From the NCBI GenBank assembly GCA_005798405.1, contig SYJQ01000031.1, positions 1-32,412 of the forward strand: DNA of 32,412 bases, written 5' to 3'. This stretch comes from Nitrosopumilaceae archaeon (GTDB lineage Archaea; Thermoproteota; Nitrososphaeria; Nitrososphaerales; Nitrosopumilaceae). The translations under genes were made by a program, and so were the position numbers. Below the pieces are notes generated by a model. The model saw only the letters and a list, made by a program, of their open reading frames with translations. It searched no databases and was not told the origin of the DNA. Positions 4,318 through 22,150 of the stretch are shown piece by piece; the first letter of the stretch is position 1, and each line of letters starts with the position of its first letter.

Positions 4318-4500
4318 TTAATTTTTCTTTCCTCTGGGCTTTGTTCTTAAAACTGCCTTGCAACAAATGCATCTTGTATCATCTACTGACAAAAATATGC
4401 CACAGAACGTGCATCTTTTCTGTCCGATTTCATATCTAATTTTATTTGGAACTGGTACTGCTTTGTGCATCTGACATATGCCTCTACATGTTCTAGCCAT
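4318..4500 (-). CDS. Small zinc-ribbon protein, operon partner of TFB
   Basis: This 60-residue basic protein has cysteines at 5, 9, 30, 33, 44, 46 and 47. C30-x2-C33 with C44-x-C46-C47 forms a likely zinc ribbon, and the N-terminal C5-x3-C9 pair may bind a second ion or stay free. The C-terminus is RTKPRGKKN. It resembles small ribosome- or transcription-associated zinc-ribbon proteins of Thaumarchaeota, but no function is established here. Its ATG overlaps the stop of the TFB gene by one base (TAATG), so the two are translationally coupled and probably work in the same process. Confidence 0.8.
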   Translation of the reverse strand: MARTCRGICQMHKAVPVPNKIRYEIGQKRCTFCGIFLSVDDTRCICCKAVLRTKPRGKKN

Positions 4501-5399
4501 TAAATTTCACCCCCTATCATTTTTCTCATTTCATTGGCTCTATCTCTGATTGTAACTGCGCTGATACCTGATACTTGGGCAATTTTCAACTGGGTAACTT
4601 TTTCACTATTTTTTAGTGATGCAATATGTACTGCGGCAGCTGCCATTGACATTGGATTCTTACTTGTGCTAATTCCTTTTTTTCCGGCAATGTCTAGAAT
4701 TTTAAATGCTAACCTCTGCGTTTTCTCTGATAAGTTGGTTGCTTTTGCAAGTCGTGTTACGAACTCGTTTGGAGTATATACTTCTGGGTAAATATCTAAT
4801 TCCTTAACTAGAAATCTGTATGTTCTTTGCAAATGTTTTGTTTTGACATTTCCAACATCTGCAATATCGTGGATAGTTCTAGGTGTATTGGTTAATCTAC
4901 ACGCGATATACGTCGTTGCACAAAGAACTCCTACCGTAGATCTTCCACTGAGAATTTTTTTTGCAGAAATTTTTCTAAACAAATATGCTGTTTGCTCAAT
5001 CACTACTTCAGGCAGTCCTAGTTTTGTCCCTATCGCATCAAGTAAAGTAAATGCCTTTTGAAATGATTTTACTGTGTTTGCAGATCTACTGTTTCTATCC
5101 CACATACGTAAACGATAAAACATTCTACGATTCTCTTTAGACAGTGACTTACCTGTAGAATCTTTATCATGTGCTTCAATTATTGTTGATAGCCCCATAT
5201 CTGCCATTTTTAAGGAAATTTTTGAACCTACTCTACTAGAAGAATACCCTTCAATGGGGGATGAATTTTCTAATCCTACTTCTAATGATTTTTCAGGAAG
5301 AACTGTTCCACAATTACTACATGCAATTTCACCTGTGGCAGGATCTGTAACTATGTTGTTTTTCTTACAATCATCTTGATGAATTAATTCTGTTAACAT
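4500..5399 (-). CDS. tfb: Transcription initiation factor IIB paralogue with altered zinc ribbon
   Basis: From the ATG at 5399 the protein is 299 residues, the usual TFB length. It has an N-terminal ribbon and two cyclin repeats (about 105-195 and 200-295). It recruits RNA polymerase to TBP-TATA complexes and contacts the BRE. The ribbon is odd: C27-x2-C30 is intact (ACSNCG), but the first knuckle has only C11, the second Cys being Asn14; H7 might substitute. I chose 5399 over the in-frame ATG at 5426 because AGGGTGA lies just upstream and because the regulon promoter at 5489-5524 drives a short leader ORF ending at 5404. The second TFB (25890-26846) has a normal ribbon. Confidence 0.9.
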   Translation of the reverse strand: MLTELIHQDDCKKNNIVTDPATGEIACSNCGTVLPEKSLEVGLENSSPIEGYSSSRVGSKISLKMADMGLSTIIEAHDKDSTGKSLSKENRRMFYRLRMWDRNSRSANTVKSFQKAFTLLDAIGTKLGLPEVVIEQTAYLFRKISAKKILSGRSTVGVLCATTYIACRLTNTPRTIHDIADVGNVKTKHLQRTYRFLVKELDIYPEVYTPNEFVTRLAKATNLSEKTQRLAFKILDIAGKKGISTSKNPMSMAAAAVHIASLKNSEKVTQLKIAQVSGISAVTIRDRANEMRKMIGGEI

Positions 5400-5403
5400 T
5401 TTT

Positions 5404-5466
5404 TCACCCTGATAATTTAAAATCATTTGATATTTTTTTCATATAGTATAGATTACTTTTTTCCAT
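5404..5466 (-). CDS. Putative 20-codon leader ORF ahead of TFB
   Basis: The TATA box TTTATATG (5489-5496) predicts transcription starting at about 5466, exactly at an ATG. That frame encodes 20 residues (MEKSNLYY...LSG) and stops at TGA 5404-5406, four bases before the TFB ATG. The stop lies inside the Shine-Dalgarno-like AGGGTGA. This layout suggests that ribosomes finishing the leader re-initiate on TFB. No similarity is known, and the peptide itself may be irrelevant. The frame is too short to be sure it is translated. Confidence 0.4.
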   Translation of the reverse strand: MEKSNLYYMKKISNDFKLSG

Positions 5467-5488: not shown

Positions 5489-5524
5489 CATATAAAGAAT
5501 AACTAAAAATTTTACTAGTGCTAA
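5489..5524 (-). promoter_or_regulatory. Regulon promoter of TFB: GCACTA element plus TATA
   Basis: On the minus strand TTAGCACTAG (5515-5524) is followed by 18 bp and the TATA box TTTATATG (5489-5496). The element and spacing match those of the other promoters of the island. No clear second copy sits next to the TATA box here. Confidence 0.65.
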
Positions 5525-5704: not shown

Positions 5705-6142
5705 TTATACATCCTTCATTCGTTTAGAATAATCATACGTGAATAACTTTGCTGGTGATACCTCTATTGCTACTTCGTTTTCAGAATTATTTCGTAGAAA
5801 TTCTGATAATGTTGAAATTTTATTTCCAAGATATTTGTCTATTAAAATATCAAGTATATCTTTTCCGATATGTTCTATGACTTTTGCTTTTCCATGACCT
5901 CTCATCCCTCTATATGGTGGATTATCTGCTGCAATCTCAAATCCTATTGAGGGATTATTCTTAATATGGGTGATTATTTTTGCCTTTTTTTGTGTTGCAC
6001 AATAAATTTTCCCATCTATCATTGTATACCATAATGACATCACTATGGGATGTCCTAATGATGTAATACATGCAATTCTTATTGGAATTTTAGTTTCATT
6101 TACAAGATCTTCTATTTTTTTTGAATATGTTTTTTGCATCAT
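5705..6142 (-). CDS. Pyridoxamine 5'-phosphate oxidase-like flavin (FMN/F420) split-barrel protein
   Basis: This 145-residue protein has the split beta-barrel pattern of the PNPOx-like family. It has an N-terminal strand with GHPIVMSLWYTMIDGKIYC, then the AT-x-K-x-K-I loop that holds the flavin phosphate, and a PPYRGMRGHGKA strand. Members bind FMN or F420 as homodimers and carry out redox reactions or flavin storage. The true vitamin B6 oxidase is usually longer, so the substrate is open. F420 is plausible in an archaeon. The start has two consecutive Met codons (6142 and 6139). It is divergent from the 6311 gene and shares a regulon promoter region with it. Confidence 0.8.
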   Translation of the reverse strand: MMQKTYSKKIEDLVNETKIPIRIACITSLGHPIVMSLWYTMIDGKIYCATQKKAKIITHIKNNPSIGFEIAADNPPYRGMRGHGKAKVIEHIGKDILDILIDKYLGNKISTLSEFLRNNSENEVAIEVSPAKLFTYDYSKRMKDV

Positions 6143-6174: not shown

Positions 6175-6214
6175 CTAATATATGAATAGTATTAAAAACA
6201 ATTTCTAGTGCTAA
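6175..6214 (-). promoter_or_regulatory. Regulon promoter of the split-barrel operon
   Basis: Minus-strand TTAGCACTAG (6205-6214), then 20 bp, then TATA CATATATTAG (6175-6184). The ten bases directly before the TATA box (TAATACTATT) look like a weak second copy. The predicted leader before the ATG at 6142 is roughly ten bases. Confidence 0.65.
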
Positions 6215-6247: not shown

Positions 6248-6285
6248 TTAGCACTATGACATTCTAACCATTTTTCATATATATC
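6248..6285 (+). promoter_or_regulatory. Regulon promoter of the 6311-7119 operon
   Basis: Plus-strand TTAGCACTAT (6248-6257), 18 bp, then TATA CATATATATC (6276-6285), which places the transcript start a few bases before ATG 6311. It stands back to back with the promoter at 6175-6214. Confidence 0.7.
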
Positions 6286-6310: not shown

Positions 6311-6673
6311 ATGCCACACGTCGTATTTGATAAAAAAATTGATTTGTTTAATTTATCAAAAAATTTCATTCCTATTTTTCAAAAGACACCTATTTTGATC
6401 AAAATTTCATCCATATTTGTTGAACAAAACGGCCATTCTGCTCTTTTGCCAACTATTGTTATTGACAAATCTCACCAAGAATTTTTAATTGAAATTTCAA
6501 CTACTGAATTAAAGACAACTATTAGACTTTATCCTGGTACAGATCCTGAGAAAACAGACGGTGTGAAAATTTCAATGGCGTTAATGTCTAAATTTTTAAT
6601 AAAAATTTTTCCTGATGTTAAAATAATTCGCTCTAATATCTATGAATTTCTTGAAGATGTGAATCATATTTGA
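6311..6673 (+). CDS. Conserved-looking protein of unknown function
   Basis: This 120-residue soluble protein is a mixture of predicted strands and helices with no signal peptide or metal-binding cluster. I do not recognise the family. It has a hydrophobic core pattern (for example TIVIDKSHQEFLIEIS and TTIRLYPG), suggesting a compact alpha/beta fold. Its stop overlaps the next start (TTGA at 6670-6673), so it is translationally coupled to the SRPBCC gene. It belongs to the motif-driven set through the promoter at 6248-6285. A role in the same stress or light response is an inference from that alone. Confidence 0.75.
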   Translation: MPHVVFDKKIDLFNLSKNFIPIFQKTPILIKISSIFVEQNGHSALLPTIVIDKSHQEFLIEISTTELKTTIRLYPGTDPEKTDGVKISMALMSKFLIKIFPDVKIIRSNIYEFLEDVNHI

Positions 6674-7119
6674 AAATTTTTAGATTACGTAGAACTTCAT
6701 TAATGACTGCTGAGGATATTTTTAACATTAGTGTGGATGTTGCTAATTTTCATCAAGTTCTGCCAAAATATTTTCAGTCGCTTAAAATAATTAAAGACGG
6801 AAAGCATGAAAAAATTGTTATTGAAAAGATTTCTTTTCTTGGATTTAGTTCAAAGATTAAAACAAAACATGTTATACTGCCTCCAAATCTTCATCATGTT
6901 TACATCTTAAGTGGTCCGCTCAAAGGTTCATTGTTTATAGAATCATACAATCCATTAAAAATTGGTACTGAGATAATTATAGATGTGCATCTAAAGTTTT
7001 TTGGATTTTTTTCTGGTTTTAATTTTTTGAATAACTATATTGCTGATAAAATGCATCAAGTTATGAATGAATTTATTACATCTGTGGAAGCAAAAATCAA
7101 CAAAAAACTAATTAGTTAG
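6670..7119 (+). CDS. SRPBCC/polyketide-cyclase-like (START-type) protein
   Basis: This 149-residue protein resembles the SRPBCC superfamily (CoQ10-binding/polyketide cyclase type). It has an early helix with AEDIFNISVDVANFHQVLPK, the usual position where the membrane- or ligand-binding helix meets the first strand, followed by repeated beta strands and a long C-terminal helix (about 120-145). These proteins form a deep hydrophobic pocket for lipids, isoprenoids or pigments. The start is TTG at 6670, overlapping the preceding stop; an internal ATG at 6703 is the alternative. The neighbouring phytoene-desaturase-like gene makes an isoprenoid or carotenoid-like ligand attractive, but this is not shown. 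Confidence 0.75.
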   Translation: MKIFRLRRTSLMTAEDIFNISVDVANFHQVLPKYFQSLKIIKDGKHEKIVIEKISFLGFSSKIKTKHVILPPNLHHVYILSGPLKGSLFIESYNPLKIGTEIIIDVHLKFFGFFSGFNFLNNYIADKMHQVMNEFITSVEAKINKKLIS

Positions 7120-7152
7120 CACTATGAAAATAAATTAGCACTTGTATAAATA
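7116..7152 (+). promoter_or_regulatory. Regulon promoter with tandem element, before the desaturase-like gene
   Basis: TTAGCACTAT (7116-7125) overlaps the stop codon of the upstream gene. A second copy, TTAGCACTTG (7135-7144), lies 19 bp further on and directly abuts TATA TATAAATA (7145-7152), 25 bp before ATG 7173. This gives the gene its own leaderless transcript. Confidence 0.75.
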
Positions 7153-7172: not shown

Positions 7173-8555
7173 ATGGTAAAACCAATTTACATTATAGGGG
7201 CTGGAATAGGCGGTCTATGTGCAGGGGCTCTACTTGCTAAGAATGGTTATTCTGTAAAAATCCTTGAAAAACATTCAAAATTAGGTGGCAGAACAGCCTC
7301 CATGCAATTTCGCAATCACATACTTGATAACGGATTTCACATAATGCCATTTTACAAAAAATCTGCAATTTTTAGTGTTTTAAAACAGGTTGGTATTGAA
7401 AATAAATTAAAACTTGCAACTGTTGATAAGATTGCCTTTTTTTCTGATACTGGATTTCATAAATATCCAAAAGGCATGGGGGATTTACTTCGACTTTCAT
7501 TAATTCCTTTTAGTAGTAGAATCTCTCTCTTGAAAATACTCCTGCCAATGGCATTTGCATCTATAAAAAAAACTGAATCATGGGATGATCTCTCCTTAAC
7601 TGAAATGACTAAAAATCTTGATCCTAAAACAAATGCATTTTTTGAAGCAGTCTGTATGCTGGCATTTGCAGATACATCTGAGCATATATCACTTGGTGAA
7701 TTTGCTAGAACTATTATCCGTGCAAATCAATTCAAGGGAGGTACTAGTGAGTTTGCTTATCCTGTTGAAGGAGGGTATGATTCCATATCGAAAGTATTGG
7801 CTACTTTTATTCAAGAGAATAACGGTGAAATTCTCCTAAACAAGTCAGTAAAAAAAATATTGATAGAAAATTCCACAGTTACAGGAATTATTACTTCTGA
7901 TGACGATACTATCCACACTGATTGCGTAGTTGTTTCTTATCCTGCATATGCAGCTCTAAACGAATTGTTTGATAAGAATACAATTGATTATAATTTTATT
8001 AAAAAAATTAATCAATTAAATAAAACTACCTCTGTAGTGGAAGTTCATTTTGCATTAAATTCTAAATTAGATTTTAGACAAGTAGTTTTTCCAGTAGGTG
8101 ATAACTATGTTACAAAAGGGATTTTTTTTATTTCTAACATTTCTCCCTCTGTATCTCCTTTGGGTGAACATTTGATGATTGCTGGAACACCCGTTTCTCC
8201 AACAGTGGCAGATGATCCACATAAAATTAAAGAAATTGTAAATGATATGAAAAAAGAAATTTCATTAATCTACCCAAAATTTTATGCTTCACTTATCTGG
8301 GAGAGACCAATGGCATGGAAGTTAGTCGAGTCTGTAGTTAAAGAGCCAGGAATGGTGTGGAAATCAAAAATGCCTCATCAAATCCCAGGAATGAAAGGGT
8401 TATTTTTTGTAGGAGATTCTACTATTAGTTATGGGATTGGTACTGATTCTGCAGCCCACAGTTCGATTCTTTGCTATCCTGAAATTATAAAATATGTTAA
8501 TAAAAATAGAACACCCACGTTTTACGCGGTTTCTGAAGGTTCTCGTAACGCATAA
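7173..8555 (+). CDS. Phytoene-desaturase-like FAD-dependent oxidoreductase
   Basis: This 460-residue protein has an N-terminal FAD-binding Rossmann motif G9-A-G-I-G-G14, then the KLGGRT dinucleotide-binding motif at about 36-41. Near the C-terminus is the second FAD motif (GLFFVGDST...GIGTDSAAHSS). This is the plan of carotenoid desaturases, cis-trans isomerases and related amine-oxidase-fold enzymes. The substrate could be a carotenoid, a polyprenyl chain or a lipid. No phytoene synthase is in view, so carotenoid synthesis is not shown. It has its own tandem-element promoter. Flavin amine-oxidase-type enzymes also occur in bacterial light regulons, which fits the island. Confidence 0.85.
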   Translation: MVKPIYIIGAGIGGLCAGALLAKNGYSVKILEKHSKLGGRTASMQFRNHILDNGFHIMPFYKKSAIFSVLKQVGIENKLKLATVDKIAFFSDTGFHKYPKGMGDLLRLSLIPFSSRISLLKILLPMAFASIKKTESWDDLSLTEMTKNLDPKTNAFFEAVCMLAFADTSEHISLGEFARTIIRANQFKGGTSEFAYPVEGGYDSISKVLATFIQENNGEILLNKSVKKILIENSTVTGIITSDDDTIHTDCVVVSYPAYAALNELFDKNTIDYNFIKKINQLNKTTSVVEVHFALNSKLDFRQVVFPVGDNYVTKGIFFISNISPSVSPLGEHLMIAGTPVSPTVADDPHKIKEIVNDMKKEISLIYPKFYASLIWERPMAWKLVESVVKEPGMVWKSKMPHQIPGMKGLFFVGDSTISYGIGTDSAAHSSILCYPEIIKYVNKNRTPTFYAVSEGSRNA

Positions 8556-9276: not shown

Positions 9277-9831
9277 TTATTTAGATAACTCAATGTCTAC
9301 TTTTAGCGTAGTACAGATATTTTCAATTGTTTTTCTAATTACCATCGGACTTATCGAAAAGAAACCTCTGAAATTGTTATCCCCAACATCTTCTGCAACT
9401 AATCCGAATACACCTGTTGAACGCTTGGTTATCACTATCCACATATTAGATATGTTTGTCCCAACACAGCTAATCACTTCAACTGTATTTGGAAGGTTTT
9501 GAGCCAAAAAGGGGTTGTTAAAGTTGCCAATTATCCAAGCCCTTGGAACCTTCTTGAGGATCTCCATATATCTATCCTCAACATACTTGTAAAGAGATTC
9601 ATTCTCAAAAGTAGCTAAAAGAGGCGCTTTGTTCTTCACGGCAAAATTTTCAAGCATCATACTTAGCGTATACAGCGTTTTTCTATCTGTACGAAAATTG
9701 ATGTATCCTGCAGATATGTATTGCCCTAAAGACCATGATTTTAATTCAGACTCATCAGTAAAATCCCTTTTTGACAGCGCTGGATAACTACTCCAAACTT
9801 CGTCAATGAAACTAGTGTACTTTTGCGACAT
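9277..9831 (-). CDS. DICT-domain sensor protein (paralogue 1)
   Basis: This 184-residue protein matches the DICT domain (sensory domain of diguanylate cyclases and two-component systems). There is a helix with SMMLENFAVKNKAPLLATFE, the F-E-x-x-x-x-Y-x-x-VE-x-R-Y pattern, a strand with AWIIGNF, then W-x-V near MWIVIT, and a final domain with FGLVAEDVG...FRGFFS. Known DICT proteins appear beside light or stress signalling modules. No output domain is attached, so it probably acts by binding another protein or DNA. The gene is leaderless from a TATA box at 9852-9859 with the island's element. Its paralogue lies at 10640-11185. Confidence 0.75.
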   Translation of the reverse strand: MSQKYTSFIDEVWSSYPALSKRDFTDESELKSWSLGQYISAGYINFRTDRKTLYTLSMMLENFAVKNKAPLLATFENESLYKYVEDRYMEILKKVPRAWIIGNFNNPFLAQNLPNTVEVISCVGTNISNMWIVITKRSTGVFGLVAEDVGDNNFRGFFSISPMVIRKTIENICTTLKVDIELSK

Positions 9832-9851: not shown

Positions 9852-9889
9852 GTATTTAACATAGTGGTATAAAATGCAACTAGTGCTAA
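9852..9889 (-). promoter_or_regulatory. Regulon promoter of DICT gene 1
   Basis: Minus-strand TTAGCACTAG (9880-9889) is followed 20 bp later by a degenerate second copy TACCACTATG (9860-9869) abutting TATA TTAAATAC (9852-9859). The TATA centre is about 25 bp from ATG 9831. Confidence 0.7.
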
Positions 9890-9897
9890 CAAAGCAT

Positions 9898-10263
9898 CTA
9901 GATTAATCCGCCAAGTTTCTTTAGTAATTTCAAATTTGTAATTTCTATACTGTCACTTAATGTCACAATTTTTGCAAGTTTTGGATTTGTATCAGCACCT
10001 AATTTCAAAACGGTCTCGCCATGCAATCTGACTTCGAGGGTGATATTGTCTTGTTTTAGACTTTTTGCAAGCCCCTTTGCAACGGATAATTTTTTGAACA
10101 GTCCTGGCTTTTTTGAAATGGATATCGGAATATCTTCTACATCTATGATTTTAGAATTTCCTTCGACTCTGAAATTAATCATGGGTGAATTATCACATGT
10201 AATTTTGATACTTCCGCTTTCAAGATAATATAAAAAATTAACAGGTAGATCAAAACTTTTCAT
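9898..10263 (-). CDS. Small beta-rich protein of unknown function
   Basis: This 121-residue soluble protein has no signal peptide and no metal cluster. It shows alternating predicted strands (SGSIKITCDNS, MINFRVEGN, NITLEVRLHGET) around a helical middle segment rich in Lys and Leu (GLFKKLSVAKGLAKSL). I recognise no family. It starts at ATG 10263, 13 bases after the stop of the gene at 10277-10462, with an AGGTGG ribosome-binding site between them. It therefore forms a two-gene operon under the motif-bearing promoter at 10482-10520. Confidence 0.75.
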   Translation of the reverse strand: MKSFDLPVNFLYYLESGSIKITCDNSPMINFRVEGNSKIIDVEDIPISISKKPGLFKKLSVAKGLAKSLKQDNITLEVRLHGETVLKLGADTNPKLAKIVTLSDSIEITNLKLLKKLGGLI

Positions 10264-10276
10264 TTCAACCCACCTA

Positions 10277-10462
10277 TCACTTTGCTGTAATTGTCAGCTT
10301 CCCAGTTAAAGAAACTGTACCGGTTGGGATCACTTTGCCTTCTTTCTGAATTTTACCTTGCAACTCCAGATTTCCAAAATCATATGTGATTGAGGCATGC
10401 TTTTGTGTTAGTTTTTCAAAAATTTCGGCCAATAAGTTTGCCCATTCTTGTTGTTCTGCCAT
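10277..10462 (-). CDS. Small protein of unknown function, first gene of a regulon operon
   Basis: This 61-residue protein has an N-terminal helix (EWANLLAEIFEKLTQKHA) and a C-terminal beta part ending in GTVSLTGKLTITAK. No family is recognised. Its TATA box and tandem elements are the clearest of the whole set, with the predicted transcript starting at the ATG. It is translated before the beta-rich gene at 9898-10263. Its position between the two DICT genes suggests a signalling or stress role in the same system, but the sequence itself gives no function. Confidence 0.75.
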   Translation of the reverse strand: MAEQQEWANLLAEIFEKLTQKHASITYDFGNLELQGKIQKEGKVIPTGTVSLTGKLTITAK

Positions 10463-10481: not shown

Positions 10482-10520
10482 CATATATAACATAGTGCCA
10501 GAAACTAATTCTAGTGCTAA
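10482..10520 (-). promoter_or_regulatory. Regulon promoter with two clear elements (best example)
   Basis: Minus strand: TTAGCACTAG (10511-10520), ten bases, then TGGCACTATG (10491-10500), a 20-bp step, directly followed by TATA TTATATATG (10482-10490). The ATG at 10462 is about 24 bp from the TATA centre, so the mRNA is leaderless. Confidence 0.78.
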
Positions 10521-10639: not shown

Positions 10640-11185
10640 TTACACTATGGTAAATTTTGTACCAAGTGTTTTGCCCATGACTTCTAAGGCATATCTGCAA
10701 ACATTTGGATTTAGTGTAAAAAATCCTCTAAATTTTCCATCCTCATATTCTTCTGCAATCAGACCAAATGGTCCATATGGCCCTCTAGTAATTACACTCC
10801 AAACATCACTAAGGTCTGTATCTTTACAATTAATTATGTTGATTTTTGGAGGAGCTCTAATCTCAGTCTTACCATAATCTGCAATTACCCAAATTTTTGG
10901 GATTTGCTCTATTAGTTTCTGATATCTTTTTTCTACAAATTTGTACCTTGCAATTTTTTCAAAAGTTGCAAGCAGTGGTTGAGCATTATCCTGAGCATGT
11001 TTTTCTATTAATTTGCTAATGTGAAACAATTGCTTTCTTTCTGCATGAAAATTATGATACCCTGCTTCGATGAATTTATCCATACTCCACATTTGAAGCA
11101 TTGAAGGATCCTCAATATGCCATTCTGCAAGCTGTGGAAATTGCTCCCAAACTTTACCTAGAAAACCAAGATAGGGCATTGCCAT
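10640..11185 (-). CDS. DICT-domain sensor protein (paralogue 2)
   Basis: This 181-residue paralogue of the 9277-9831 product has the same architecture: SKLIEKHAQDNAQPLLATFE, KFVEKRYQKLI, a WVIADYG strand, DVWSVITRG and FGLIAEEYEDGKFRGFFTL. It is a stand-alone DICT domain. Unlike paralogue 1, its promoter (TATA ACTTATATC at about 11207-11215, 26 bp from ATG 11185) has no recognisable GCACTA element, so it may be expressed constitutively as the sensing partner. It is divergent from the DUF6659-like gene at 11282. Its ligand is unknown. Confidence 0.75.
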   Translation of the reverse strand: MAMPYLGFLGKVWEQFPQLAEWHIEDPSMLQMWSMDKFIEAGYHNFHAERKQLFHISKLIEKHAQDNAQPLLATFEKIARYKFVEKRYQKLIEQIPKIWVIADYGKTEIRAPPKINIINCKDTDLSDVWSVITRGPYGPFGLIAEEYEDGKFRGFFTLNPNVCRYALEVMGKTLGTKFTIV

Positions 11186-11281: not shown

Positions 11282-11686
11282 ATGGGACGATACGAAAAAG
11301 TTCTCAATATGTTAATGGATTATGATGAGTCCATTAGATTAGCAATAATTAGCAATACCTCAGGCGACATATTGTGGCATTCTAAAAGAAACGATGCTAA
11401 ACTTCAAGTTCCAATTGCTGAAACAAAAAAAGCACTAAAACGCGAATCAGATGATTGGATAGACAGGTGTAAAACAGCAGATCGAGCTGCATTAGGCCGT
11501 GCTCTTTATCATATAACATCATTTGAGAAGACAAAAAGAGTTACACTACCAATTGATGCGTTTCACCTTTTGTTTATTAGTGTAGATAACACTCCTATGA
11601 AAAATACTAAGAATAAAAGTTATGGAAAACTTGTCGAAATGGGAAAAATATTGTCCATTGTTGACTTTGTAAATACATTTGAGTAA
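11282..11686 (+). CDS. DUF6659-like (roadblock-type?) protein, paralogue 1
   Basis: This 134-residue protein is closely similar to the next gene: both start with a (G/D)(R/K)YEKxLNMLMD helix, have GxIxWxSxR, a central helix and YxI(T/S)SxEKxKRxxxPxD, and end in KxxEMGKILSIVDF. This is a family common in ammonia-oxidising archaea that I associate with DUF6659. The fold looks like a small profilin/roadblock-type sensor domain. The role is unknown. Two tandem copies next to a DICT gene suggest a signalling role. Its promoter carries a palindrome rather than the GCACTA element. Confidence 0.8.
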   Translation: MGRYEKVLNMLMDYDESIRLAIISNTSGDILWHSKRNDAKLQVPIAETKKALKRESDDWIDRCKTADRAALGRALYHITSFEKTKRVTLPIDAFHLLFISVDNTPMKNTKNKSYGKLVEMGKILSIVDFVNTFE

Positions 11687-11783: not shown

Positions 11784-12188
11784 ATGGACAAATACGAGAA
11801 ACTTCTCAACATGTTAATGGATTTTAATGATAACATCAGATATGCGGCGGTTGCAGACAGTGATGGTAAAATTATGTGGAATAGTCAAAGAACAGGATTA
11901 AAAAATATCGTACCAATAGAAGAAACAAAGCAAACTATTGGCAGAGCATTGCGTGGTTGGAAAGAAAATGCAACTGTAAAAAACTATCTTGGCTCAGGAC
12001 TATATTCAATTTCATCATATGAAAAAATAAAAAGAATATCGGTTCCTTTGGATGGCGGAAAGATGTTATTTTGTACCATTAGCAATGAACCACTGGTAAA
12101 ATCATCAGAAGGTAAAAAGGGATATGGTCACATTGCTGAAATGGGGAAAATTTTATCCATAGTTGATTTTATAAAATCTCAAAAATAG
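11784..12188 (+). CDS. DUF6659-like protein, paralogue 2
   Basis: This 134-residue protein matches the 11282-11686 product along its full length, including LxNMLMDxxxxIR at the start, GKIMWNSQR, the YSISSYEKIKR motif and EMGKILSIVDFI at the end, so the two arose by tandem duplication. The first copy retains more charged loops. The absence of any hydrophobic segment suggests a cytoplasmic role. It ends about 100 bases before the convergent stop of the B12-binding gene. Nothing in the sequence shows what it senses or binds. Confidence 0.8.
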   Translation: MDKYEKLLNMLMDFNDNIRYAAVADSDGKIMWNSQRTGLKNIVPIEETKQTIGRALRGWKENATVKNYLGSGLYSISSYEKIKRISVPLDGGKMLFCTISNEPLVKSSEGKKGYGHIAEMGKILSIVDFIKSQK

Positions 12189-12296: not shown

Positions 12297-13139
12297 TTAT
12301 GCTGCTCTTAGAATTTTTGGAATTTCATCCAAATTTACATCATGGATAACTTTGGCATCAAATTTATGAATTTTTTCTTCTTGAAATGCAAATCCTCCTA
12401 CTAATATTGGAATATCGTATTGCTCTTTAATTTTTTTAACTAGTCTTTGTCCTGCAGATATGTTGTCTTCTAAAGTAATTGAAACTAATACTATGTCTGG
12501 TTTGTTATATTCAATAAAACTAAGTATTGATTCTGTTGGTATTGATGTGCCCATATTGTATACTTTGAATCCCTTTATTGAAAGATATGTTTCTAACACA
12601 TCACATCCTAAATGATGTTCTTCACCAAGTGGAACACAAATTAAGATTTTCTTTTTGTTTGAATTGCCTGTGACTTTGTCCATTATGATTTTTACTAATG
12701 TTTGAGCAACATTGCTTGCAACATGCTCTGTAGCAATACTGATGGTATTATTTGCCCAATCTTCTCCTATTTTGGACATAACAGGTCTCAAAATCTTATC
12801 GAAGAAATCCCCCGGACTAAAAATCTTAATGTATTCTTCATAAATTTTTACAGATGATTGAATATCACCATCAATTAATTTTTTGTATAATGTCTGTTTT
12901 GATTTTTTTGTTGATTCTTCTCTTTTGCTAATGTCTTTTGGATTATGTAATGTCAGAACAGATAATATCTTTGGATCATTTCTGTATTCTACCGGTATGT
13001 CATCATTGATAACTTCCGATGCTTTTCCCAAATATTTTACAATTTCTTGCTTGGATGTGTTTTTTTTAGAATCCCAGACACTTTTAACTAGATATAGATA
13101 ATTATCTGATTTTACTTTTTTAGCCCTAATGTAGACCAT
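12297..13139 (-). CDS. CarH-like B12-binding (photo)regulator without MerR domain
   Basis: This 280-residue protein has a basic N-terminal domain (1-45) of the thaumarchaeal YLYLVKSVWD...IVKYLGKA type. It then has a helical cap (about 78-155) and a cobalamin-binding Rossmann domain (162-280). The cap contains W128-x9-E138-H139, the Wx9EH signature that CarH/LitR photoreceptors use to hold adenosylcobalamin. The B12 domain has E173-x-H175-x2-G178 (His175 being the lower cobalt ligand), S220-x-T222-L and G248-G249. Methyltransferase corrinoid proteins lack Wx9EH. The His that follows Trp in Thermus CarH, the light-state ligand, is Ala129 here. There is no MerR helix-turn-helix. The gene carries its own tandem element, suggesting autoregulation. 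Confidence 0.85.
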   Translation of the reverse strand: MVYIRAKKVKSDNYLYLVKSVWDSKKNTSKQEIVKYLGKASEVINDDIPVEYRNDPKILSVLTLHNPKDISKREESTKKSKQTLYKKLIDGDIQSSVKIYEEYIKIFSPGDFFDKILRPVMSKIGEDWANNTISIATEHVASNVAQTLVKIIMDKVTGNSNKKKILICVPLGEEHHLGCDVLETYLSIKGFKVYNMGTSIPTESILSFIEYNKPDIVLVSITLEDNISAGQRLVKKIKEQYDIPILVGGFAFQEEKIHKFDAKVIHDVNLDEIPKILRAA

Positions 13140-13158
13140 AAATAATCTTTAATTGTTT

Positions 13159-13196
13159 GATATTTAATTAATGCTAACCTGAGGATCTAGTGCTAA
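13159..13196 (-). promoter_or_regulatory. Regulon promoter of the B12-binding protein gene
   Basis: Minus-strand TTAGCACTAG (13187-13196) and a second copy TTAGCATTAA (13168-13177), 19 bp apart, the second abutting TATA TTAAATATC (13159-13167). The start at 13139 is about 24 bp from the TATA centre. Confidence 0.72.
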
Positions 13197-13250
13197 CAAA
13201 ATAATTTGATTTAAGAGTGATTTACCATAATCTGTCTTTTTTATGCCTAT

Positions 13251-13288
13251 TGGCACTAGTTTTAAGCAGTGGCACTAGTTTTAATAAT
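13251..13288 (+). promoter_or_regulatory. Regulon promoter of the SDR gene
   Basis: Two identical TGGCACTAGT copies at 13251-13260 and 13270-13279, 19 bp apart, precede TATA-like TTTAATAA (about 13279-13288), which lies about 26 bp before the leader ATG at 13309. It faces away from the B12-protein promoter at 13159-13196. Confidence 0.72.
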
Positions 13289-13308
13289 TAATTTGACAAA
13301 ATTAATTC

Positions 13309-13389
13309 ATGTCTGATTTCAAGATTGATATTTTTAATTTAAAAATTAATTTTCTAGATACTAGTATTGGGAACCAACTATTTTCATGA
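13309..13389 (+). CDS. Putative 26-codon leader ORF overlapping the SDR start
   Basis: The TATA box of the regulon promoter places the transcript start at ATG 13309. This frame codes for 26 residues (MSDFKIDIFN...QLFS) and stops at TGA 13387-13389. That overlaps the ATG of the SDR gene at 13386 (ATGA), so the leader and the SDR are translationally coupled. The SDR start has no good TATA box or ribosome-binding site of its own, making coupling the simplest explanation for its translation. The same layout occurs in front of TFB. Confidence 0.45.
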   Translation: MSDFKIDIFNLKINFLDTSIGNQLFS

Positions 13390-14765
13390 CTCAAATAACG
13401 GATAATTTCGTATCTTCTAAAATCAAACCTTATTCCATTCTAGTTACTGGTGCTACTGGCTTTATTGGTTCCAGGTTGATCACAAATTTGGTATCTAATG
13501 GATTCACTGTCAAGGGAATGAGTAGAAAAAAACTCCTTGATACCAACAATGTAAAGTATGTTCAAGCTGATGTTTTTGATGTTGAGCAATTAGCAAGAGC
13601 AATGAATGGAATTGATATTGCCTATTATCTCCTTCATTCTATGGAGGGAGAAAAAGAACATTGGAAAGAATTTGCATCCCGAGAAAAGATCCAAGCTGAA
13701 AATTTTCTTAAAGCTGCCACTCAAGCTAATGTTAAAAGAATAATCTATCTTGGCGGTTTAGTAAATGATAGTCTAGAATTATCTCCACATATGAGAAGTA
13801 GAAAGGAGGTCGGTGAAATACTTGCTTCTGGAAATATTCCTGTTACACAATTGCGCGCATCTTTGATTATTGGTGCTCAAGGAGGATCATATGCAATGCT
13901 CAGATATCTTGTTGAGCGATTGCGTATAATGGTTACGCCGTCTTGGGTCAAGTCTCGAGCTCAACCAATAGCTGTTGATGATGTTATAGCATATCTTGTA
14001 GGATGTATGAATCATCCTGAAACTAGTGGCAAAATTTTTGAAATCGGTGGACCTGATATTATGACGTATGAAGAATTGATGCGCGTATATTCTGCATATC
14101 TTAATAAAAATCTCTTTGTAATACAAATTCCATTTCTAACAACCAGACTTTCATCCTATTGGGTAGATCTAATCACACCAGTAAAGGCATCCTTGGCAAG
14201 ACCGCTAATTGATAGCTTGGTTCATGATACTGTTGTAACTGATAATTCCATCACAAAGATTATTCCTCTTAATTTAAAATCCGTGCGTGAATCAATTGAT
14301 ATCGCTACTAAAGAAATGCGAGAAAGTCCACCTGAATCCAATCCAAGAGATCAAAAAACTGGTTTTAAAATCAATCAGAAACTTTTGCTTGCTTCTTTAA
14401 TTGTAATGGCATGTATTGGAACCACGTATTATTGGATGGATGATAGGGTGGATGTTTATCATCCAATTTGGATTTTAGCTGCAATACTATGGTATATTGG
14501 AATAATATTTGCTATAACTTTTGTAAGTAGTAAAACTAGATTGGGGTTTATGATCAGTGGTGTCTTATCGTGGATTACCTTAATTTTTTGGTCATTTGAT
14601 AATTTTTATGTCGTGTTTAACACTTCATTGATATCTTCACCTCCAAGTGACATTATTGAGTTGAGGAACTTTATTGGAATTATAATTACCATTATTGCAA
14701 TAATCTCATCTCACAATACTTTCCATAAAGTAATTAATTACCAATACAAAGGTAAACCGATTTAA
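13386..14765 (+). CDS. NmrA/YbjT-like SDR oxidoreductase with four-helix membrane tail
   Basis: This 459-residue fusion begins with an atypical short-chain dehydrogenase Rossmann domain: T21-G-A-T-G-F-I-G28 binds the NAD(P) phosphate, followed by DVFD, a YYLLHSM stretch, YLGG and RKEVGE. Residues 1-315 resemble NmrA/YbjT-type proteins. After a linker, residues about 330-450 form four membrane helices, which bacterial relatives usually replace with another domain (DUF2867). The active-site Tyr-x3-Lys is not evident, so it may be a sensor or act on a membrane isoprenoid or quinone. Related SDRs are common in bacterial light regulons. Gene 14778 converges on it 12 bases away. Confidence 0.8.
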   Translation: MTQITDNFVSSKIKPYSILVTGATGFIGSRLITNLVSNGFTVKGMSRKKLLDTNNVKYVQADVFDVEQLARAMNGIDIAYYLLHSMEGEKEHWKEFASREKIQAENFLKAATQANVKRIIYLGGLVNDSLELSPHMRSRKEVGEILASGNIPVTQLRASLIIGAQGGSYAMLRYLVERLRIMVTPSWVKSRAQPIAVDDVIAYLVGCMNHPETSGKIFEIGGPDIMTYEELMRVYSAYLNKNLFVIQIPFLTTRLSSYWVDLITPVKASLARPLIDSLVHDTVVTDNSITKIIPLNLKSVRESIDIATKEMRESPPESNPRDQKTGFKINQKLLLASLIVMACIGTTYYWMDDRVDVYHPIWILAAILWYIGIIFAITFVSSKTRLGFMISGVLSWITLIFWSFDNFYVVFNTSLISSPPSDIIELRNFIGIIITIIAIISSHNTFHKVINYQYKGKPI

Positions 14766-14777
14766 TTTTTTCAAACA

Positions 14778-16133
14778 TTATTTTTGATTTTTAAAAATAT
14801 TCTTGGTCTTACCAGCTTCAATTTTGTGGTCGACAATCGGGTTTGGATATGTTAATCCCTTAGGTTGCTTTCTCCACAAGTTGTGAATTTCATTTGGTTT
14901 TACAGTATTTAATTCCGGAATCCATTTTTTGATATATTTACAATTTGAATCAAATTTTTCTTGTTGCATCCATGGATTGAATATTCTAAAGTATGGAACT
15001 GCATCACAACCAGTAGATGCTGCCCACTGCCAATTTCCTACATTCACTGCAGGATCATAATCTATCAGTTTTTCTGCAAAATATCTTTCTCCCCATTTCC
15101 AGTAAATATGTAAATCTTTAGTCAGAAAAGATGCTACTATCATTCTGACTCTGTTGTGCATGAATCCTGTCGTGTTTAATTCTCTCATTCCAGCATCTAC
15201 TATGGGAAAGCCTGTTTCTCCTTTGCTCCAAGAAAGAAATTGTTGCTTGTTTTGGCTCCATTTTATTTTTGCAAATTTTTTCTTAAAACTCTCAAATTGT
15301 GAATTTGGATGATAATGAAGAATATAAGTAAAGAATTCTCTCCAGTATATTTGGCTAATTAAGATGTGATCTTCTCCAAGGCTGTTTTTTATTGCATGGT
15401 ATACTTCACGAATGGATACAGTGCCAAATCTGATATGAGCTGACATTTTAGTTGTCATATCTAAAGCAGGATAGTCTCTGTTTTTCTTATATTCTTTGAA
15501 TTGTTTAATTTTTTTTAGAATTCCAATCGCATTTTCTCTCCCACCGATGTGTTTTTCAATATTTTTTTCTTTAAATTCTAATGATATGTCTCCTTCAATT
15601 TTATCTTGATAGTAATTGTTGAAGTTATTTTTAATAGATTTTCTAACTGGAATGGTCTTTGCAGTTTTAAAAAAATGTGAGTACACAGTATATGGTTTTT
15701 GTTCTTTTGTATGTATTTCATCAGGAATATGTAATAAATAATCTGCATGTTTGTTAAAATCTATACTATTTTGTTTGCATATCTTTTTGAGTTGCATTTC
15801 TTTTTTTTGAGCAAACCTAGTATAATCTCCATTCACAAACACTCCATCTATTTTTTGTTCCGATATTATTCTCTTTAGACAGTCTTCTGTTCTACCCTTG
15901 AAAATTTTTAAATTACTTTTCTTTTTATGTAACTGCTCATCAAGATCTATTAATGATTCGTTAAGAAATTTAATTCTTAATGTAGATTTTTTTAATTCAT
16001 TCATTATCTCAGTATCTATAATGAAACACGGGATAACTTTATCTGAATTTTTTAATGCGTAGACTAGTCCTGTGTTATCTTCTAATCTTAAATCACGACG
16101 AAATATGAATAGTGATTTTTTATATTTTGGCAT
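14778..16133 (-). CDS. phr: DNA photolyase / cryptochrome family
   Basis: This 451-residue flavoprotein has the antenna-domain opening FRRDLRLEDN (11-20). Its C-terminal FAD domain carries WxxEFF, MHNRxRMIVASFLTKDL, then DYDPAVNVGNWQWAASTGCDA and PYFRIFNP at about 358-390. The NWQWxxS-x-G-x-D motif and the tryptophans there are those of photolyases that repair cyclobutane pyrimidine dimers with blue light. The cofactor is FAD with a deazaflavin or folate antenna; archaeal photolyases use 8-HDF. Cryptochromes share these motifs, so a repair role is inferred from family. It is the second gene of an operon with DUF1722, 23 bases downstream. Confidence 0.92.
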   Translation of the reverse strand: MPKYKKSLFIFRRDLRLEDNTGLVYALKNSDKVIPCFIIDTEIMNELKKSTLRIKFLNESLIDLDEQLHKKKSNLKIFKGRTEDCLKRIISEQKIDGVFVNGDYTRFAQKKEMQLKKICKQNSIDFNKHADYLLHIPDEIHTKEQKPYTVYSHFFKTAKTIPVRKSIKNNFNNYYQDKIEGDISLEFKEKNIEKHIGGRENAIGILKKIKQFKEYKKNRDYPALDMTTKMSAHIRFGTVSIREVYHAIKNSLGEDHILISQIYWREFFTYILHYHPNSQFESFKKKFAKIKWSQNKQQFLSWSKGETGFPIVDAGMRELNTTGFMHNRVRMIVASFLTKDLHIYWKWGERYFAEKLIDYDPAVNVGNWQWAASTGCDAVPYFRIFNPWMQQEKFDSNCKYIKKWIPELNTVKPNEIHNLWRKQPKGLTYPNPIVDHKIEAGKTKNIFKNQK

Positions 16134-16156: not shown

Positions 16157-16702
16157 TTACTCATACTCTTTGATATTCATTGGTTGAAATATTGCTTTAG
16201 GGTCTATATCTGAATACAACAAAAAGTATGTCTGGCTTGCAAGATATGTTCTATCAAAGCGATAAGCAACAGGACTCATTTCTAAAAGAATTTTTCCTAG
16301 AGTTATTTTTCCGTCTCTAAATTTTTCTAATCTACTTAAAAATAACTCCTTTTCATTTTGATTCAGATATTTTAGGAAATATCCAAAAATATGCATAATT
16401 ACGTTAGTATTTGTTTTGATAGTAGGTGTTTTTGACATGGCCAGTGTTAAGTGACTTTCATAATCCGTTAGTATGTCTGAAAATGATCTTTTTTTGTAAC
16501 TTGCTACAATATTTCCTAATATCTTTAATTCTGCTTGGTCATGTGCCATTATCATGTATTTGTTAGATGTATGAAACGCTATCATGTTTTTGATCTTTTT
16601 TGAGTGTTTTACGTCTTGAAATCTTTGCAACACATATTCCATTACATCTTTTTCAGATAATCGATGATTATTTTTATCAAAATACGATTTAACATCTGAC
16701 AT
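16157..16702 (-). CDS. DUF1722 (YbgA-type) protein, operon partner of photolyase
   Basis: This 181-residue protein carries the DUF1722 pattern: FH (43-44), K48, AH (53-54), LG (62-63), then TN-x-VIMHIFGYF (98-109), EK (117-118), FRDGK (128-132) and YLASQTYF (153-160). E. coli ybgA lies beside phr in the same way, and bacterial relatives are also fused to DUF523. The function is not known; the pairing suggests DNA repair or flavin handling. A TATA box (CTTTTTAAG at 16725-16733) lies 27 bp before ATG 16702. An inverted copy of the island's element (16755-16764) stands 21 bp upstream of that box. Confidence 0.88.
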   Translation of the reverse strand: MSDVKSYFDKNNHRLSEKDVMEYVLQRFQDVKHSKKIKNMIAFHTSNKYMIMAHDQAELKILGNIVASYKKRSFSDILTDYESHLTLAMSKTPTIKTNTNVIMHIFGYFLKYLNQNEKELFLSRLEKFRDGKITLGKILLEMSPVAYRFDRTYLASQTYFLLYSDIDPKAIFQPMNIKEYE

Positions 16703-16754: not shown

Positions 16755-16823
16755 TGGCACTATGTTTTTAAATTTTTTGGGTTTTTTGGCACTAGATAAT
16801 TTTTTTAGCACCATCTTAAATAC
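16755..16823 (+). promoter_or_regulatory. Regulon promoter with three elements, before the secreted repeat protein
   Basis: TGGCACTATG (16755-16764), TGGCACTAGA (16787-16796) and TTAGCACCAT (16805-16814); the last two are 18 bp apart and the third abuts TATA CTTAAATAC (16815-16823). The TATA centre is 27 bp from ATG 16846, fixing the start of the secreted protein. The first copy could also serve the divergent DUF1722 promoter in inverted orientation. Confidence 0.75.
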
Positions 16824-16845: not shown

Positions 16846-17745
16846 ATGAAAACAACAATTACTACAATAGCAACAATACTACTTGTTGGATCAATAACTC
16901 CATTTGTCTATGCAGAGGGAGTTCCAGCTTGGGTAAAGAACAATGCAGGATGGTGGGCTGACGGTACAATATCTGAATCTGAATTTATTCAAGGAATTCA
17001 ATTTCTGATAAAAGACGGTGTCATAGTAATTCCCCCAACAACAGTATCTGCAGAAAAGTCTCAATCTGTTCCAGCTTGGGTAAAGAACAATGCAGGATGG
17101 TGGTCAGACGGCACAATCACTGATGGTGAATTTGTAAATGGCATTCAGCATTTGATTAAGACTGGAGTAATTTCCGTTACTGTAGAATCCAAATCATCTG
17201 AATCTACAAACAAAGATAAATCTCCAATGACATCTGATTCAGAACTTACATCTCTTCAAACAGAATTAGAGAAATGTGCTGATATTGAAAAAGCATATCC
17301 TAGATTAAACTGTGAAAAAGAAGCCAAGTTAAAGATAACAGAATATGAGTATGTACAAAAATCAACACAATATGTAGTTGGTTCAGCGACATTTTATTTT
17401 CCAGGTCCTGAATATGAGGTTAGTTCAACCGGACAGGCTCTTTTAACAATTAAGATGCTTGTTAAAAATACTGGCTCTGATGAAAATGTCTCTTTGATGT
17501 GTACTGGACCATCCATTTGTCACTATGATGTATGGAATGGTGAAAAAGCATTCAAGTACTCTGCAACTGACTTTACAAACGGAAACATTGTTCTAACTCC
17601 AGGACAAGCAAGAGAATTCTCCATGTTATTTGGGCCTCTAGTCCCATACGGTGGAACACAATTCATCTATGATCCTGCAAAGGATTACGTCTTTAGGATT
17701 TCAGAACCTTGGGGAAGTTACAATATTCCATTGGACCTCCCATAG
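16846..17745 (+). CDS. Secreted protein with two WVKNNAGWW repeats
   Basis: The start at 16846 gives a classical signal peptide (MKTTITTIAT...PFVYA, cleavage after about 23) and 299 residues in all. An upstream ATG at 16762 is in frame, but it lies inside the promoter elements. After the signal come two copies (about residues 26-60 and 75-109) of VPAWVKNNAGWWADG/SDG-TI...EF..GI..LIK.GVI, a domain widespread in secreted thaumarchaeal proteins. A coiled linker with two cysteines follows, then a beta-sandwich (about 180-290). It is likely cell-surface or extracellular. A role in binding carbohydrate or peptidoglycan-like material is sometimes assumed for these repeats, but is not shown here. Confidence 0.85.
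   Translation: MKTTITTIATILLVGSITPFVYAEGVPAWVKNNAGWWADGTISESEFIQGIQFLIKDGVIVIPPTTVSAEKSQSVPAWVKNNAGWWSDGTITDGEFVNGIQHLIKTGVISVTVESKSSESTNKDKSPMTSDSELTSLQTELEKCADIEKAYPRLNCEKEAKLKITEYEYVQKSTQYVVGSATFYFPGPEYEVSSTGQALLTIKMLVKNTGSDENVSLMCTGPSICHYDVWNGEKAFKYSATDFTNGNIVLTPGQAREFSMLFGPLVPYGGTQFIYDPAKDYVFRISEPWGSYNIPLDLP
16921..17103 (+). repeat. Two exact 36-bp copies encoding the WVKNNAGWW repeat
   Basis: Bases 16921-16956 and 17068-17103 are identical (gttccagctt...tggtgg). Such identity within otherwise diverged repeats suggests recent gene conversion or duplication. Confidence 0.9.
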
Positions 17746-21097: not shown

Positions 21098-22150
21098 TTG
21101 AATGAGAAGATTACTGATATGTTGACTCAATCCATGGATAATTTGGATAAGGAAATTCTCAATGAGATTCAATGGACTTTTCCGCTTACTTCAAAACCAT
21201 TTGATGACATTGCAAAAAAATTTGGTACTACTCCGGAAATTATTAAGGAGCGTTTGATTAATCTTAAAAAAATTGGTGTATTGCGACAACTAAGTGCTAT
21301 ATTTGATACAAGACGCCTTGGTTACAAAAGTTCCTTGGTTGCAATGGAGATTGAATCTGATAAGTTAGAACACGTGGCAAATCAAATCAATCGTCATCCC
21401 GGGGTAAGTCATAATTATGAGCGAGATCATCAGTTTAATCTCTGGTTTACTTTGGCAGTGCCACCTGGATCTGATTTGAAGACTGAAGTTGACAAATTTT
21501 CTGTATTGAAAGGAATTAAGAAAGTTAGAATGTTGCCTACCATTCAATTATTCAAGATTGGGGTAAAATTAGACATGGTTGATGAAAAAAAACATGAAGT
21601 TGCTCCAACAGAAGAAAAAAAAGAAATTAAAAACATAAAATTCGTTCCTACTGAACAAGATAAAGAGTTTATCCGTGAGATGCAAAAAGACATGGAGATC
21701 ACTGATAGACCATTTCTAAACTCTGCAACAAAATTAGGACTGACTGAAGATGAGTTATTTGAGAAAATGAAATATTATGAGAGTATTGGTGTGATGCGAA
21801 GATTCGCTGCCATTTTGAGACACAGAGAAGTTGGTTTTACTGCAAATGGAATGATTGTTTGGAATGTACCTGATGATAAAATTTCAGAAGTAGGTGCAAA
21901 ATTAGGTGCGTTTCCACAAGTAAGCCATTGTTATCAAAGACCAACATATCCTGATTGGCCTTACAGTGTATTTTCTATGATTCACTGTAAATCTGAAGAA
22001 GAGGCAGGAGAAATGGCAAAAACGATTCAAAACCAAATCGATATCAATGATTATAAAATATTATTCAGTACACGCGAATTTAAAAAAACTCGAGTGGAAT
22101 ACTTTGTTGAAAATAATTTTAGTCTAGAAGAAACAATTCAATTATCTTAA
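21098..22150 (+). CDS. ahbAB: Sirohaem decarboxylase, AhbA-AhbB fusion
   Basis: This 350-residue protein consists of two Lrp/AsnC-like halves. Each has a winged helix (about 15-65 and 188-235) and a RAM-like ligand domain containing an RR/RQ-x-S/A-A-I motif and an H-x-Y/YER or CYQR motif (NYERDHQFNLWF and HCYQRPTYPDWPY). That is the pattern of AhbA/AhbB, which decarboxylate sirohaem to 12,18-didecarboxysirohaem in the alternative haem pathway. In many organisms AhbA and AhbB are separate; here they are one chain. The start is TTG at 21098, fixed by the TATA box 27 bp upstream. Its position opposite hemA and the Met8-like gene supports this over a transcription regulator. Confidence 0.9.
   Translation: MNEKITDMLTQSMDNLDKEILNEIQWTFPLTSKPFDDIAKKFGTTPEIIKERLINLKKIGVLRQLSAIFDTRRLGYKSSLVAMEIESDKLEHVANQINRHPGVSHNYERDHQFNLWFTLAVPPGSDLKTEVDKFSVLKGIKKVRMLPTIQLFKIGVKLDMVDEKKHEVAPTEEKKEIKNIKFVPTEQDKEFIREMQKDMEITDRPFLNSATKLGLTEDELFEKMKYYESIGVMRRFAAILRHREVGFTANGMIVWNVPDDKISEVGAKLGAFPQVSHCYQRPTYPDWPYSVFSMIHCKSEEEAGEMAKTIQNQIDINDYKILFSTREFKKTRVEYFVENNFSLEETIQLS

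Follow-up and report, generated by a model that had tools for sequence, protein, structure and literature searches.

The window, as we call the whole 32,412-nucleotide stretch of Nitrosopumilaceae DNA analysed here, encodes on its minus strand a CarH-like B12-binding regulator candidate, hereafter labelled CAR, within an island of genes and operator-like sites collected in Table 1. The original prediction had proposed this open reading frame without its strand, and the frame proves to be real.

Table 1. CAR, the surrounding island genes and the operator-like sites (positions within the window)
Feature	Coordinates	Strand	Remarks
CAR gene, CarH-like B12-binding regulator candidate	12297..13139	-	ATG start, 280 aa
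CAR N-terminal 65 residues, candidate DNA-binding domain	12945..13139	-	basic three-stranded sheet + helix
CAR helical cap, residues 82-152, G125-x2-W128 and E138-H139	12684..12896	-	PF02607, E 3e-12
CAR Rossmann B12-binding domain, residues 165-257, G172-E-E-H175-x2-G178 and G197-x3-P201	12369..12647	-	PF02310, E 9e-14
SDR/NmrA-like oxidoreductase (SDR), C-terminal hydrophobic segments	13386..14765	+	divergent from CAR; co-occurs with CAR
DNA photolyase (8-HDF/class I type)	14778..16133	-
Stand-alone DUF1722 (YbgA-like) protein	16157..16702	-
Secreted protein, AWVKNNAGWW repeats	16846..17745	+	likely start 16846, not 16762
FAO, FAD-dependent amine-oxidase/carotenoid-desaturase-like oxidoreductase	7173..8555	+
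PNPOx-like flavoprotein	5705..6142	-	Pfam match below cut-off
Conserved archaeal protein, function unassigned	9277..9831	-	adjoins CAR in Nitrosopelagicus too
61-aa ORF (10277-10462) and 121-aa conserved protein (9898-10263)	9898..10462	-
Transcription factor B (TFB) paralogue	4500..5426	-
Two conserved genes (6311-6673, 6670-7119) between TFB and FAO	6311..7119	+	half-site TTAGCACTA at 6248-6256
Operator-like repeat TTAGCACTAG-N9-TTAGCATTA before CAR, flush with TATA box	13169..13196	-	about 30 bp before start codon
Operator-like repeat, divergent promoter, SDR side	13250..13277	+
Operator-like site before secreted repeat protein	16786..16813	+
Operator-like site before FAO	7116..7143	+
Operator-like site before PNPOx-like gene	6187..6214	-
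Operator-like site before 9277-9831	9862..9889	-
Operator-like site before 61-aa ORF and 9898-10263	10493..10520	-
Weaker operator-like site upstream of TFB gene	5497..5524	-	10.8 bits, alone not significant

The island and its distribution

The members of this island (SDR, photolyase, DUF1722, FAO, PNPOx-like, TFB and the unassigned genes) recur around CAR in other genera in rearranged order. A TFB gene lies within the island in 41 of the 69 long loci and a photolyase gene in 11 of the 69, so that adjacency of the photolyase taken alone is weak evidence, and the sites described below together with the SDR are better. Counted over 81 genomes, the SDR is found alongside CAR in 28 of 29 genomes (p 4e-14) and the photolyase in 14 of 15 (p 1e-5); in the single exception genome, G041, operator sites are present and CAR was not found, and since this is a 120-contig assembly that carries the sites, its CAR gene may sit in a gap. 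Within the window, the DUF1722 and photolyase genes probably form one operon.

It is worth recording that two duplicated gene pairs inside the island (9277-9831 with 10640-11185, and 11282-11686 with 11784-12188) recur with it in other genera, and that a 26-aa ORF (13309-13389), which begins 31 bp past the SDR-side site and shares an ATGA overlap with the SDR start, is possibly a leader peptide or a true first cistron. In one Nitrosopelagicus locus (L146, 8002-8553) a MEDS-domain protein is encoded just upstream of CAR (Pfam E 2.5e-8), MEDS being among the domains reported as fusions with light-responsive B12 domains, and in a lake thaumarchaeote (L141, 3524-4078) a flavoprotein-family (UbiX-like) gene adjoins the SDR gene as a further flavin-related member of the island. 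Elsewhere in the window, a single ORF (21098-22150) has matches to AhbA as well as AhbB, the two subunits of siroheme decarboxylase, that is, a fused AhbAB, and adjoins hemA, hemB and cysG-like genes. As to DUF1722, bacterial members are tied to s4U tRNA de-modification (PMC11417400), and freshwater Nitrosarchaeum has been reported to be without s4U synthesis (PMC9239080).

Of 81 genomes from the family of the window organism, 35 encode full-length CAR homologues, named carriers including Nitrosarchaeum, Nitrosopumilus, Nitrosopelagicus and Nitrosotenuis. A 300-genome sample of the phylum yielded them only in the order of the window organism, with more distant homologues in further families of that same order, and the architecture of an N-terminal sheet followed by a CarH-type B12 module was seen only in ammonia-oxidising archaea (AOA).

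The B12 module and the N-terminal domain of CAR

The original prediction saw here a candidate B12 photoreceptor of the CarH kind whose N-terminus is not of MerR type, a reading that sequence, fold, phylogeny and genomic context all support. Both W128-x9-E138-H139 and E173-x-H175-x2-G178 lie exactly at the positions it had named. W128, E138, H139, G172, E173 and H175 are invariant in 25 CAR orthologues, down to 41% identity, and when this alignment is widened by five distant homologues, the W, the EH and the cobalt-ligand His are kept in 20 of 20 signature-bearing homologues. CAR has all four motifs that SignatureFinder (PMC11796333) gives for light-responsive cobalamin-binding domains, namely GxxW (G125-W128), EH (E138-H139), GxxH (G172-H175) and GxxxP (G197-P201), the G of the last being variable within the CAR family; it also carries ExHx2G-x41-SxT-x25-GG, which fits the CarH motif quoted as ExHx2G-x41-SxT-x22-27-GG (PMC9304148). 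We compared 33 B12 domains, comprising 20 archaeal homologues, 7 bacterial photoreceptor-type proteins, MetH and five archaeal corrinoid proteins. W and EH are present in 20/20 of the archaeal homologues and 7/7 of the bacterial photoreceptor-type proteins; MetH and the five corrinoid proteins have F or Y at the W position, are without EH and form a group of their own (support 100/99), and the archaeal CAR family forms one group (98/99). Judged from these alignments, the signature exceeds chance, since it is invariant across orthologues and its W and EH are missing from the methyltransferase relatives.

The AlphaFold model of CAR (pLDDT 87) has the fold of the CarH B12 domain (Foldseek E about 1e-12 against CarH), and its 49 top PDB matches are CarH, photocobilins or CtMerR, although the orientation of the cap relative to the Rossmann domain is unreliable in this model (pTM 0.45, rmsd about 13 Å). 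Among NCBIfam models CarH scores best and matches 25 of 25 orthologues, far below its cut-off: the MerR-type CarH equivalog NF052513, with a curated threshold of at least 400 bits, gives CAR 68.4 bits from the B12 part only, the same part to which the roughly 22% identity with Thermus thermophilus CarH is confined. Like CarH and the LitR class, CAR joins a cap and a Rossmann B12 module bearing Wx9EH and ExHx2G.

The residue after the tryptophan is Ala129, as had been pointed out, at the position of the bis-His light-state ligand His132 of Thermus CarH; across the CAR family it is never His (Ala here; K, S, E, V and others elsewhere). The prediction had taken this loss as a hint of different photochemistry, but it is not unusual: characterised light-responsive relatives hold Arg, Gln or Tyr there (PMC11796333), and CtMerR, SasPcob and AbDPcob respond to light in spite of it. 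CtMerR, the photocobilins and other signature-bearing B12 photoreceptors (PMC11796333, PMC10979010) share with CAR all four light-response motifs and the lack of His after Trp; they differ in being bacterial, with MerR, bilin-binding or enzymatic partner domains, and the text consulted names no archaeal member. In Thermus CarH itself, the H132A protein is largely tetrameric in light, most of the tetramer dissociation being lost (PMC10442372). With a residue other than His after the Trp, CAR would have no bis-His state, and the archaeal protein would need some other route from photolysis to the release of DNA.

Where Thermus CarH begins with a MerR winged helix, residues 1-65 of CAR are basic, as predicted, and are modelled, at pLDDT 91, as an antiparallel three-stranded sheet with a helix. 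We considered whether a helix-turn-helix had been overlooked and rejected it on this predicted topology and on the lack of a MerR match in Pfam, which gave no consistent match of any kind for these residues; they had no sequence match in the PDB, and comparison of their fold with the PDB returned nothing better than E 0.28, with a weak resemblance to PC4. They are nonetheless the most conserved part of CAR (75% mean column identity) and are nearly always coupled with the B12 module in AOA genomes. As the fold is without a structural match, the case for DNA binding is built on the basic character of the domain, its conservation and the sites linked with CAR.

Modules resembling this domain, with the shared pattern K-x-K-x2-G-x2-Y-x-YL...YLG, also open archaeal Fic proteins (L266 and L267, Fic domain confirmed) and small orphan ORFs of 135-156 aa (L255-L259). 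By sequence, the module may therefore be widespread and unnamed, and its relatives in Fic and orphan proteins point to a possibly general nucleic-acid or protein-binding module. It may also resemble the N-termini of IS transposases.

Operator-like repeats upstream of CAR and other island genes

CAR upstream regions share the tandem repeat TTAGCACTAG-N9-TTAGCAYTA followed by a TATA box, with a 19-bp step; in Nitrosopelagicus the step is 20 bp and a TATA-like stretch lies between the repeats. The region 13140-13308, which the original prediction had singled out for DNA-binding assays, holds two conserved sites of this kind, in keeping with that choice. Such an operator-like repeat, conserved upstream of CAR itself and of other island genes, is new here. 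With a weight matrix built from other genomes only, seven strong sites come up in the window, in front of CAR, SDR, FAO, the secreted protein, the PNPOx-like gene, the 9277 gene and the 61-aa/9898 pair; at the pattern level, shuffles give 0.54 matches per window. For most strong sites the distance to the start codon is 29-32 bp (for the PNPOx-like gene, 44), counted on the SDR side to the 26-aa ORF, with the SDR start itself 108 bp away. For photolyase and DUF1722, no well-placed strong site of their own orientation was found within the window.

In the whole genome, 5 of 5 near-perfect matches (at most one mismatch) fall inside the island, and weaker matches elsewhere stay at the level of a reversed-pattern control. 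The 1.3 Mb of homologous neighbourhoods contain 213 sites, whose ends typically fall 30-31 bp short of the CAR, FAO and 9277-gene start codons; a Markov control of 0.6 Mb yielded 0. Site and gene occur together in 30 of 81 genomes, the gene only in 5, the site only in 5 and neither in 41 (Fisher p about 5e-12); four of the five site-only genomes hold just weak, non-canonical matches, and the Nitrosopelagicus genomes among the five with CAR and no perfect-spacing site use the 20-bp step. In two genomes (G022 and G039) CAR lies on one contig and the SDR, photolyase and PNPOx genes, with sites still among them, on another, which indicates a link in trans. A general AOA promoter element was considered and rejected, given the confinement of near-perfect sites to the island, the control level of weak matches and the absence of the site from nearly all CAR-less genomes.

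CAR homologues from other AOA families (34-39% identity) still have site-like repeats upstream; three degenerate paralogues, in which W and EH have been lost, no longer do. A second paralogue of this type, in which the N-terminal domain is kept, was seen at L062 (8549-9412), L063 (5092-5967) and L064 (6890-7714); in L062 and L063 a truncated cap gene adjoins it. A different palindromic element (CTCACCTAGGTGAG and variants) replaces TTAGCACTAG upstream of the paralogues without W/EH, which, by their sequence, are perhaps B12-independent like CarA.

A candidate light switch and its alternatives

With a probability of roughly 0.7, we consider CAR to be an AdoCbl-dependent, light-sensing transcription regulator whose N-terminal domains sit on the TTAGCACTAG repeats and whose photoprotection genes are released by light; AdoCbl binding, the light response, binding to the sites, oligomerisation and the sign of control (repression) are what we infer. 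In the dark, AdoCbl would sit between the cap, at W128, E138 and H139, and the Rossmann domain, which would supply His175 as the lower ligand, the loaded form would favour an oligomer placing its N-terminal beta-sheet domains on the tandem repeats beside the TATA box, and the bound protein would probably block TBP/TFB. Light would break the Co-C bond, the adenosyl group would depart and the complex would loosen from DNA, whereupon the SDR, flavin oxidoreductase, PNPOx-like and other genes, probably also photolyase/DUF1722, and CAR itself would be expressed. CAR is probably a dark repressor: repression over activation is suggested by the overlap of the site with BRE/TATA and by the Nitrosopelagicus repeats that flank the TATA-like stretch, although the fixed site-to-TATA geometry would also suit an activator, or a promoter element that a dedicated TFB recognises.

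That some other factor recognises the repeats, for instance the island TFB as an extended BRE, with CAR acting on that factor off DNA like an AerR-type antirepressor, strikes us as unlikely. The proximal repeat does lie at the BRE position, flush with TATA, the TFB gene is frequent in the island as counted above, and the N-terminal domain of CAR is without a known DNA-binding fold; but the distal repeat, 19 bp further up, falls outside a BRE, and the TATA-like stretch sits between the repeats in Nitrosopelagicus. Moreover, the local TFB is missing in 21 of 22 loci under 60% identity, where the site upstream of CAR is mostly kept, and the sites track CAR and vanish upstream of its degenerate paralogues.

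A light-regulated CAR also agrees with the company it keeps. The Thermus carH cluster, like the CAR island, contains photolyase, SDR and FAD oxidoreductase genes (in Thermus also flavin reductase), the window SDR being 36% identical over 300 aa to the SDR of that cluster and the photolyase homologous too. The class II LitR regulons of Pseudomonas likewise include clusters of photolyase, SDR and FAD-dependent oxidoreductase (PMC9758184), and one LitR operon combines photolyase with the TudS-DUF1722 protein RudS, whose target is s4U, a photosensitive base of tRNA (PMC11417400); class II LitR, however, works with a LOV protein and has another DNA-binding domain, and DUF1722 stands alone in the CAR island. 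As for the different output that had been expected, its kind is probably the same as in CarH, transcriptional control of photoprotection genes, exercised through a different DNA-binding domain. The same gene content speaks against a DNA-binding regulator responding to AdoCbl supply or redox state instead of light, which we regard as quite improbable: the island genes (photolyase, DUF1722, SDR, flavin enzymes) belong to photoprotection rather than to B12 metabolism and match the light regulons of Thermus and Pseudomonas, even though AOA make and need AdoCbl and CarH-type domains switch upon cofactor binding as well as light. A corrinoid subunit of a methyltransferase, finally, which shares the cap-Rossmann fold and to which the weak matches of CAR to MtaC/MtbC/MetH models and the common D/ExHxxG ligand motif might point, is nearly excluded, as CarH is the best-scoring model, W and EH are present in CAR and absent from methyltransferase members, and a methyltransferase partner, which would have overturned the prediction, was sought and not found (the genome has no MttB, and the Pfam-scanned neighbours include no methyltransferase gene).

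By membership CAR is not a CarH, having no MerR domain, no His132, a sub-threshold model score and another operator (TTAGCACTAG repeats at a 19/20-bp step rather than nAnnTnnACAn at 11 bp) within archaeal TBP/TFB promoters; yet it very likely works alike, and direct repeats at the promoter are common to both. It is apparently a new architecture of B12-dependent photoregulator, unreported in archaea within the open literature searched: no archaeal CarH was found among open-licence PMC papers, and subscription journals may hold one. The fuller proposal, that CAR is the first archaeal B12 photoreceptor, pairing a CarH-type module with a new beta-sheet DNA-binding domain, controlling a photoprotection regulon via TTAGCACTAG repeats at BRE/TATA, possibly with a TFB in the role that a light-induced sigma factor has in some bacterial systems, and relying on photochemistry without bis-His, we hold to be somewhat more probable than its contrary.

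AOA are light-sensitive and very abundant, and a search of open-licence PMC papers yielded no light sensor for them. The CAR cluster with its shared promoter site is probably an AOA switch for photoprotection in light, and with the gene, the DNA site and a short list of targets now specified, the light response of these archaea can be tested directly. If true, B12 photoreception would extend into archaea with a new DNA-binding module, and a light module of photolyase, SDR and flavin enzymes would be common to bacteria and archaea, governed by B12-domain regulators with unrelated DNA-binding ends.
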